Source: Flavobacteriaceae bacterium (GTDB taxonomy: Bacteria > Bacteroidota > Bacteroidia > Flavobacteriales > Flavobacteriaceae). From it: a stretch of 58,282 nt of DNA. Both the position numbers and the translations under genes were made by a program. Every line of letters begins with the position of its first letter. Position 1 is the stretch's first letter. Shown in pieces: positions 42,521-44,907 of this stretch. A model generated the notes under the pieces. The model worked only from the letters and a program-made list of their open reading frames with translations. It ran no database searches and was not told the origin of the DNA. The stretch covers positions 1 through 58,282 of the forward strand of contig JALQVG010000006.1 of assembly GCA_023260435.1 (NCBI GenBank), given 5' to 3'.

Positions 42521-44086
42521 TTACTTGGCCACGTTTACAGCACGAGTTTCACGGATAACCGTAACCTTTACTTGACCTGGATAAGTCATGTCTGTTTGAA
42601 TTTTTTGAGAGATTTCAAAAGACATCTCCATGGCTTGCTCATCGCTGACCTTTTCACTTTCTACGATTACCCTTAATTCTCTACCAGCTTGAATCGCATA
42701 AGCTTTTTGTACCCCTTTAAACCCAAAGGCAATATCTTCAAGATCTTTAAGTCTTTGGATGTATGAATCGAGGACTTGTCTTCGCGCTCCTGGACGGGCT
42801 CCGCTGATAGCGTCACAAACCTGAACGATTGGGGCGATAAGCGTTTTCATTTCAATCTCATCGTGGTGGGCACCTATAGCGTTACAAACATCAGGTTTTT
42901 CGCCATATTTTTCAGCCCACTGCATACCGAGAATAGCGTGTGGCGTTTCTGCATCAGCCTCACTATGCGGTACTTTTCCGATATCGTGTAAGAGACCAGC
43001 GCGTTTGGCCAGTTTGGCGTTTATACCCAATTCAGCAGCCATAACACCACATAGCTTAGCTACTTCTCTAGAGTGTTGTAGCAAATTTTGACCATAAGAA
43101 GATCGATACTTCATACGGCCAACAGCCTTGATTAACTCAGGATGCAATCCATGGATGCCCAAATCAATCACTGTTCGCTTTCCTACTTCAGCAATTTCTT
43201 CTTCGATTTGCTTTTCAGTCTTCTTGACCACCTCTTCAATACGGGCTGGGTGTATCCTTCCATCGGTCACTAATCGGTGAAGTGAGAGACGAGCAATCTC
43301 TCTGCGCACTGAATCAAAACAAGAAAGGATAATGGCATCAGGCGTATCATCTACAATAATTTCTACCCCGGTGGCTGCTTCAATGGCGCGAATATTTCTT
43401 CCTTCCCTACCAATGATTCTACCTTTAACATCATCTGATTCAAGGTTGAACACCGAAACACAGTTCTCCACTGCTTCTTCGGTACCGATACGTTGAATGG
43501 TATTGATGACAATCTTTTTGGCTTCTTGTTGGGCGGTAAGCTTGGCCTCTTCCATCGCTGTTTGCATATAAGCCATAGCCCCTGTTTTGGCTTCTTCTTT
43601 CAAGGTAGTCATCAACTGCTCTTTGGCGTCCTGGGCGGATAAACCAGAGATCACCTCGAGTTGTTGGACTTGATTTTTGTGAAGACGGTCCACCTCAGCC
43701 TGCTTCTTATCTAACAATTCCGACTTTTGAGCTACTTCTTGAAGCTGACGCTCTAACTGATCCGAAAGCTTTTTATTTTGGGCGAGCTCAGCGCTTACTT
43801 GTGACTCCTTATCTCTGGTTCTCTTTTCAGCTTCAGCAATTTTCTTGTCTTTTTGAACGATGTGTTGTTCGTGCTCTGCCTTAAGCTCTAGAAACTTTTC
43901 CTTTGCTTGAAAGATTTTGTCTTTCTTGATGTTTTCTGCTTCTACTTTGGCATTTTTAATGATGTCCAAGGCCTCTTTTCTGGCACTGGCTATGGTTTTC
44001 GATGCCTTGCCTTTTTCCATGATTTTGGCGGCGCCAAAACCAAGGACTGACATCAGTGCGCCGATGATCCACGGGGTTATTTCCAT
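42521..44086 (-). CDS. rny: Ribonuclease Y
   Basis: 521 residues. An N-terminal membrane segment ([20 protein letters not shown]), a long coiled coil (about 30-200), a KH domain with [21 protein letters not shown], and an HD phosphodiesterase domain with [13 protein letters not shown] and [12 protein letters not shown]. RNase Y starts mRNA decay from the inner membrane. The ATG at 44086 is chosen; an in-frame GTG at 44122 lies in the terminator hairpin of the upstream RNA gene and adds non-conserved residues. Confidence 0.96.
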
Positions 44087-44107: not shown

Positions 44108-44135
44108 ATAAAAAAAACCCACACTGGTTGGGTTT
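44108..44135 (-). terminator. Terminator of the candidate 6S RNA
   Basis: On the minus strand AAACCCA pairs with TGGGTTT around a 7-base loop (positions 44135-44115), followed by a T run. It ends 22 bases before the rny ATG, so rny must be read either through it or from a promoter not recognised here. Confidence 0.8.
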
Positions 44136-44137
44136 GT

Positions 44138-44250
44138 ACAAACTCCAAAAAAACAGGTTTAAGGCTAACAGTATATTCGAGTTTCCTTGACGTGAAGGCA
44201 TGCTCTAGGATACTGACTCACCCCCTCGAATTCATTCGTGTTGAGTTTGT
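44138..44250 (-). ncRNA. ssrS: Candidate 6S RNA (flavobacterial type)
   Basis: The 170-base gap between zapA and rny holds no reading frame but does hold a structured RNA on the minus strand. ACAAACTC (44250-44243) and GAGTTTGT (44145-44138) form an 8-base-pair closing stem. Inside, ATTCGAG (44231-44225) pairs with CTCGAAT (44181-44175), leaving a large asymmetric bubble as in 6S RNA. An AATTTTTG box lies directly upstream and a terminator directly downstream. The zapA-linked position and the ~113-base length agree with flavobacterial 6S RNA as I recall it. A competing pair (CAGTAT with ATACTG) is also possible. Identity is inferred from structure and place. Confidence 0.6.
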
Positions 44251-44258
44251 CAAAAATT
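44251..44258 (-). promoter_or_regulatory. -7 box AATTTTTG of the candidate 6S RNA
   Basis: Seven of eight match to TAnnTTTG on the minus strand, immediately before the closing-stem strand, which places the transcription start within the first bases of the RNA. Confidence 0.5.
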
Positions 44259-44292
44259 GACCAATGTGGGCAGAATCTTGATAAAGAACGTT

Positions 44293-44583
44293 TTAGCCGA
44301 TAGCTTCAGCAATGAGGTCATCCAATCGTGTTAGTCGTTGTGCAAGTTCCTCTGATTCTGCAGAATCTTGAAGAACTTTTTGCTCAACTTTAGAGGCGAA
44401 ATGCAAGGCACACATGGCCAATACATCTTGTTTATCTCGCACGGCGTAGTTCTGTTCAAAGCTTTTTGTCATGAGCTCTATTTGCTTGGCGGCTTTGCGC
44501 AAACCTTCTTCCTGTCTGGGATCGATGGTGAGCGGATAAACCCGATCAGCTATGGAGATTTTTATTTTTAGTTTCTCCGACAT
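44293..44583 (-). CDS. zapA: Cell division protein ZapA
   Basis: 96 residues. The ZapA fold: KLKIKISIADRVYPLTIDP at the N-terminus, EEGLRKAAKQIELM and a C-terminal helix (ALHFASKVEQKVLQD). It binds FtsZ filaments and bundles them at midcell. It lies 2 bases after the coiled-coil gene and upstream of the candidate 6S RNA. Confidence 0.93.
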   Translation of the reverse strand: MSEKLKIKISIADRVYPLTIDPRQEEGLRKAAKQIELMTKSFEQNYAVRDKQDVLAMCALHFASKVEQKVLQDSAESEELAQRLTRLDDLIAEAIG

Positions 44584-44585
44584 TA

Positions 44586-44876
44586 CTACACAGAGAGCGC
44601 ACCTATACAGCGGTCCAACTCTTTTATTAGGGTGTTCATTTTCTGTTTGGCATCGGTCGTGTTTTGATCACTGCCGAGCACGCTGTGGGCCATTTGAAGT
44701 GCTTGAACTTGATGTTCCAGCTGTGATTGTTGTCGTTGATACGCTTCAAGCGATGCTTGAAGGTTAGATCTTTGGGCATTCAAGTCAGCTACTGCTTCTG
44801 TCAATTGATGGTTTCTGTCCAACAATTGCTGTACTTTTTGCTCTAAACCTGCAACGATGGCAATCATTTCGCTCAT
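44586..44876 (-). CDS. Coiled-coil protein upstream of zapA
   Basis: 96 residues, nearly all heptad-like coiled coil (IVAGLEQKVQQLLDRNHQL, QSQLEHQVQALQMAHSVLG), ending in a helix with KMNTLIKELDRCIGAL. There is no membrane segment. Its layout recalls ZapB-like partners of ZapA, and the last helix resembles the tail of other division coiled-coil proteins, but I cannot assign it. ATG 44876 is used because TAATTTTG lies 23 bases upstream; an in-frame start at 44912 would cover that box. Confidence 0.75.
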   Translation of the reverse strand: MSEMIAIVAGLEQKVQQLLDRNHQLTEAVADLNAQRSNLQASLEAYQRQQSQLEHQVQALQMAHSVLGSDQNTTDAKQKMNTLIKELDRCIGALSV

Positions 44877-44899: not shown

Positions 44900-44907
44900 C
44901 AAAATTA
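44900..44907 (-). promoter_or_regulatory. -7 box TAATTTTG of the coiled-coil protein-zapA unit
   Basis: Exact TAnnTTTG match on the minus strand, 23 bases before ATG 44876. A divergent TAATTTTA at 44944-44951 serves the M23 peptidase gene. Confidence 0.6.

Follow-up and report, generated by a model that had tools for sequence, protein, structure and literature searches.

The non-coding element between zapA and rny in the window analysed here (58,282 nt, contig JALQVG010000006.1 of assembly GCA_023260435.1, a Flavobacteriaceae bacterium) is the 6S RNA of this organism and a member of the 6S-Flavo family. 6S RNA is an RNA decoy of the open promoter, whose bubble binds the housekeeping sigma-A RNA polymerase and which is released once the polymerase has copied a short pRNA from the 6S template. 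Our analysis further suggests, with a probability of roughly 0.55, that this 6S RNA is cut from the zapBA transcript, that boxA antitermination acts on that transcript, and that rny is reached by readthrough. A broader proposal, to which we give a little short of even odds, is that the 6S RNA of Flavobacteriales has no promoter of its own and is made from the zapBA transcript under boxA/NusB antitermination, with its supply coupled to cell-division genes as well as to the machinery of rRNA synthesis, and with rny dependent on readthrough of the 6S terminator.

A covariance-model search of the whole window returned 6S-Flavo (RF01685) as the sole Rfam match at gathering level, at 44246-44140 on the minus strand, with 87.9 bits against a gathering cut-off of 85 (E 1.3e-13) and over the full length of the model (positions 1-108 of 108). 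From the stop codon of zapA (44293) to the ATG of rny (44086) the minus strand is non-coding, as the first-pass annotation of this DNA had stated. Because the match lies above the curated cut-off within this gap, and because homologues that share its covarying structure are found at this location throughout the order, the 6S identity which that annotation proposed is correct. The RNA extends about 28 nt past the RF01685 model on either side, and is about 55 nt longer than the span first assigned to it (44138-44250), the outer stem having been missed. Folding of 44274-44108 gave a z score of -4.41, with none of 200 shuffles as good, whereas the shorter span folded modestly (z -1.67, 11/200 shuffles). 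The related Bacteroidales-1 family (6S-Bacteroidales, RF01693) matched weakly over 44271-44111, a span that takes in the two arms of the outer stem, with 14.8 bits, far under its cut-off of 60. The RF01685 model does not reach the covarying outer stem; the Bacteroidales-1 model covers the equivalent arms with its ends but does not annotate them as paired.

Table 1. Features of the zapB-like-zapA-6S-rny region, in window coordinates and in the order of transcription after the two rows for the RNA.
Feature	Position	Strand	Basis
Rfam-covered part of 6S RNA	44140..44246	-	RF01685
6S RNA, extended model including outer stem	44111..44274	-	Covariance model R1, 138.1 bits, model positions 1-174 of 174
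Sigma-A -7 box TAATTTTG (TAnnTTTG), likely promoter of the whole unit	44900..44907	-	112 of 112 loci
ZapB-like coiled-coil gene	44586..44876	-	Start at M13 of the listed ORF, from homology
zapA	44293..44583	-	PF05164, 66.1 bits, cut-off 23.8
boxA-like GTTCTTTATCA in 6S leader	44279..44289	-	10 of 11 positions of GYTCTTTAANA
Outer stem, 5' arm GCCCACATTGGT	44260..44271	-	Consensus, covariation, window ensemble, further loci
UUUG and closing stem, 5' strand TTTGACAAACTC, holding the end of the first-assigned -7 box	44243..44254	-	Consensus, covariation
Helix 4, 5' strand CAGTAT	44210..44215	-	Covariation, window ensemble
Helix 4, 3' strand ATACTG	44169..44174	-	Covariation, window ensemble
Closing stem and CAAA, 3' strand GAGTTTGTACAAA	44133..44145	-	Consensus, covariation
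Outer stem, 3' arm ACCAGTGTGGGT, terminator stem	44117..44128	-	As for the 5' arm
U-run of terminator (TTTTTTTT)	44110..44117	-	Sequence; conserved in alignment A1
rny (RNase Y), next gene past the terminator	42521..44086	-	TIGR03319; no conserved TAnnTTTG

The secondary structure was examined in an alignment (A1) of 60 dereplicated sequences from zapA-rny gaps, in which pair counts were compared with shuffles and with slid partners. The consensus contains 42 pairs, of which 32 show double changes, and in a 41-pair version 96.4% of cells are paired, with 317 double-change cells against 80 expected and none of 500 shuffles as high. It has the general form of a 6S RNA, namely a closing stem, a bubble of about 20 + 17 nt and then helices 3-6, which are 93-96% paired with double changes at nearly every pair; in the window's own fold, extra pairs close part of the bubble. 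Outside the Rfam model, a 12-bp outer stem (44271-44260 with 44128-44117) joins the ends of the RNA; over the 11 pairs tested, 98.6% of cells are paired and eight pairs show double changes. As its 3' arm leads into eight U, the outer stem is the conserved terminator stem. In 14 loci outside A1, the median pairing energy of a locus's own outer-stem arms was -18.5 kcal/mol versus -8.1 for swapped arms; these loci had been found by the stem-containing model, which favours pairing in each of them, and the gap between own and swapped arms is not explained by this alone.

Compensatory changes were thus present (317 versus 80 in shuffles), but not at every stem that the first-pass annotation had listed. 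Its 8-bp closing stem ACAAACUC/GAGUUUGU (44250-44243 with 44145-44138) exists and covaries in relatives. Its inner 7-bp stem ATTCGAG/CTCGAAT is not supported, being paired in 45.2% of cells versus 44.9% in shuffles; this stem has a pair probability of 0 in the window's own ensemble, and one of its pairs is broken in sister genome G003 (L034, CTCGCAT). The pairing CAGTAT/ATACTG, which had been read as a mutually exclusive switch, turned out to be helix 4 of the regular structure, 93% paired with compensatory changes at 6/6 pairs, and it belongs to the minimum-energy fold of the window. A U-run terminator just before rny was rightly recognized, but the local terminator hairpin AAACCCA/TGGGTTT is not conserved and was paired no more often than in shuffles (57.3% versus 57.5%). 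Nor is the supposed -7 box at the RNA supported as a promoter element: the window reads AATTTTTG there, exact TAnnTTTG occurs at that place in 5/118 relatives, and the site lies inside the transcript, its last letters forming the 5' strand of a UUUG/CAAA helix that adjoins the closing stem. In the bubble strand, a mimic of the -7 box was not found above the level of shuffles. The hairpin ACUCA/UGAGU, an alternative whose formation would disrupt the closing stem, is 95% paired and nearly invariant, so that covariation is uninformative about it either way.

The gene order zapB-like, zapA, 6S, rny is that of the Flavobacteriales: nearly all loci of the order with enough sequence have zapB-like, zapA, the gap and rny in succession, and among ten additional loci, all from other families of the order, rny was downstream in 10/10 and zapA was detected in 8/10. 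A search with Rny yielded 80 named loci, from Flavobacteriaceae or from MAGs titled only Bacteroidia (e.g. Zeaxanthinibacter, Arenibacter and Maribacter), the closest being a Flavobacteriaceae MAG with 99% Rny identity. RF01685 was found in 43/60 related genomes but becomes scarce beyond the family, with 6/149 across the class, and the model with the outer stem found 53/60 relatives versus 43/60, which makes it the better 6S model for the order. Four class-level homologues (L192-L195) were found only with the extended model and have neither zapA nor rny nearby. The name of the first gene is tentative, as its match to Pfam ZapB (E 2.7e-4) is below the cut-off. The order ZapB-like, zapA, 6S (window 44876-44293) is also seen in beta- and gamma-proteobacteria (PMC7641849).

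In Bacteroidota the sigma-A -7 box reads TAnnTTTG (PMC7366714, PMC9723704), and its distribution points to a promoter ahead of the zapB-like gene. All 112 distinct loci have the motif no more than 60 nt from the start of the zapB-like gene, in almost every case at -40 to -31; zapA and rny are each preceded by it in one locus of 112. These relatives share ancestry, and the counts are accordingly not independent. Within the last 30 nt upstream of the 6S RNA it was absent from all 118 loci, whereas the same 30-nt test recovered it before the SRP RNA in 27/27 cases and before the RNase P RNA in 22/26. The simplest reading of these sequences is a single unit with one sigma-A promoter, although 6S or rny may have a promoter of another type or motif nearby. 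The earlier suggestion that the 6S level and RNase Y supply may be linked thereby gains some support, in that one conserved promoter would serve the whole unit and rny has next to none of these boxes of its own. In two class-level homologues without zapA nearby (L193 and L195), TATATTTG lies directly 5' of the outer stem, a position consistent with the RNA beginning at that stem. Within zapA, a candidate promoter about 175 nt upstream of boxA was a one-mismatch cluster in fixed frame in the coding sequence and was put down to codon conservation.

A boxA-like element, GTTCTTTAAAATA (GTTC[AT]T[TA]), precedes the 6S RNA in 110/118 loci, the other eight being without the motif. Elsewhere, the same pattern occurred in 61/1180 random 100-nt windows and in none of 27 SRP or 26 RNase P leaders; these counts, too, come from sequences of shared ancestry and are not independent. 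The spacing between motif and 6S RNA is mostly 16-17 nt (range 9 to 29; 9 nt in the window). The motifs of many relatives match GYTCTTTAANA, the boxA consensus of gamma-proteobacteria (PMC5725501), and the window copy has one mismatch to this consensus. When a profile of the 6S leaders was applied to rRNA leaders of sufficient length, its top-scoring site in most of them was an element much like that of the 6S leaders, usually GTTCATTAACATATTG or close to it. This site lies 113-174 nt ahead of 16S and, in those leaders in which TAnnTTTGC was identified, downstream of that box; four scored leaders matched weakly (p 0.13-0.21, from two genomes), and the best site of L156 was elsewhere. Our first boxA pattern (GTTCTTTNANATA) had no match in the rRNA leaders because the rRNA form has GTTCATT. 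A GTTC[AT]TTRAYATATTG-like element recurs in the rRNA leaders of Flavobacteriaceae (16S loci L129-L136, L139 and L141-L170), and is likely a lineage form of boxA. An ECF-type CGT box had also been considered at the leader motif and was dropped, since a very similar motif was found inside rRNA transcripts.

We infer a course of events comprising co-transcription, processing, NusB action, protection from Rho and readthrough into rny, and, for the RNA itself, RNA polymerase binding and pRNA synthesis. A single sigma-A promoter upstream of the zapB-like gene would drive zapB-like, zapA, 6S and rny, and the nascent RNA would expose the boxA-like element past the zapA stop, where NusB, which is encoded in the genome, could bind it together with ribosomal protein S10 and shield the untranslated RNA from Rho. 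A model put forward for E. coli has NusB-bound boxA hold the rRNA leader until the trailer emerges, so that the leader-trailer helix can form (PMC10250234). NusB and S10 might hold the 6S leader in a similar way and let the outer stem's 5' arm pair with the 3' arm when this is transcribed, some 130 nt further on. Most transcripts would then end at the outer stem and U-run, the 5' end of the 6S RNA would be freed by processing, and rny would be supplied by readthrough.

A different account, which we consider appreciably below even odds, holds that this is an ordinary 6S RNA with a private promoter just upstream, in which case GTTCTTTAAAATA would belong to a promoter with an alternative or degenerate sigma motif and would not be a boxA, and zapA and rny would be mere neighbours. 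The fairly constant distance of the motif from the RNA start (mostly 16-17 nt) would suit such a promoter; moreover, 6S RNAs elsewhere have their own promoters, as do two class-level homologues, and F. psychrophilum has alternative sigma motifs, of which one contains a CGT box (PMC9723704). However, the spacing varies from 9 to 29 nt, a second conserved box was not seen in the ~30 nt before the motif, and the very similar element in rRNA operons lies inside the transcripts, downstream of TAnnTTTGC, and is therefore no promoter there.

It is also conceivable, but in our judgement quite improbable, that the element acts in cis as a leader or terminator switch of rny instead of as a trans-acting 6S RNA. 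Its position before rny is fixed across the order and its own ends form the terminator stem, as such a switch would have it; yet it matches a curated 6S family over full length, the four class-level homologues have neither rny nor zapA nearby, and 6S was detected as an RNA in F. psychrophilum (PMC9723704). The pairings tested included no conserved alternative by which the terminator would be opened, ACUCA/UGAGU being invariant and not decidable in this respect. That the inverted repeats arose by chance and there is no RNA at all can practically be dismissed: the modest fold of the span first assigned would agree with it, but covariation unmatched in 500 shuffles refutes it, and the Rfam E value and the z score of the full span also speak against it.

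Returning to the processed and antiterminated 6S RNA that we favour, comparison with known systems shows which of its features are familiar. Along the entire Rfam model it shares sequence and structure with 6S-Flavo (RF01685; Weinberg et al., 2010, PMC2864571), but it is longer, with a covarying outer stem that is at the same time the terminator, and its leader and operon context are absent from the family description. In the phylum, 6S RNA is expressed in F. psychrophilum (PMC9723704), and both 6S RNA and pRNAs have been detected in B. thetaiotaomicron (PMC7366714). In E. coli, where ssrS lies in zapB-zapA-ssrS, 6S likewise follows zapA and a downstream gene shares the transcript, as predicted here; there, however, the next gene is fau/ygfA and processing from a dicistronic transcript is documented (PMC7641849), whereas here the next gene is rny and a boxA-like leader is present. 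The RNA itself is of a known kind, and it is the apparent lack of its own promoter, along with the boxA-like leader, that seems unusual.

The leader element resembles the boxA of rRNA operons and suhB (PMC5725501, PMC10250234) both in consensus and in its flavobacterial rRNA counterpart. The layout is also alike: a short spacer separates boxA from one strand of a long-range helix, which here is the 5' arm of the 6S outer stem, the two arms lying some 130 nt apart. Unlike the known boxA targets, the element precedes a 6S RNA, and boxA function in this phylum is putative. A literature search for boxA, 6S RNA and NusB together found no paper, with subscription papers mostly outside its coverage, and the 2017 survey of boxA targets, by its own statement, did not consider non-coding RNAs (PMC5725501). 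If our reading of the leader is true, boxA antitermination would reach 6S RNA, a target class omitted from that survey, and one transcript would be common to the growth-rate machinery (Nus factors and rRNA), a transcription brake (6S), division proteins and an RNA-decay enzyme. In addition, a boxA-like element (e.g. GTTCTTTACAATAT) was observed just before the mature GGGG 5' end of flavobacterial tmRNA in L220, L221, L223, L227, L230, L234 and L241, and the motif count in tmRNA upstream regions was 9/24.
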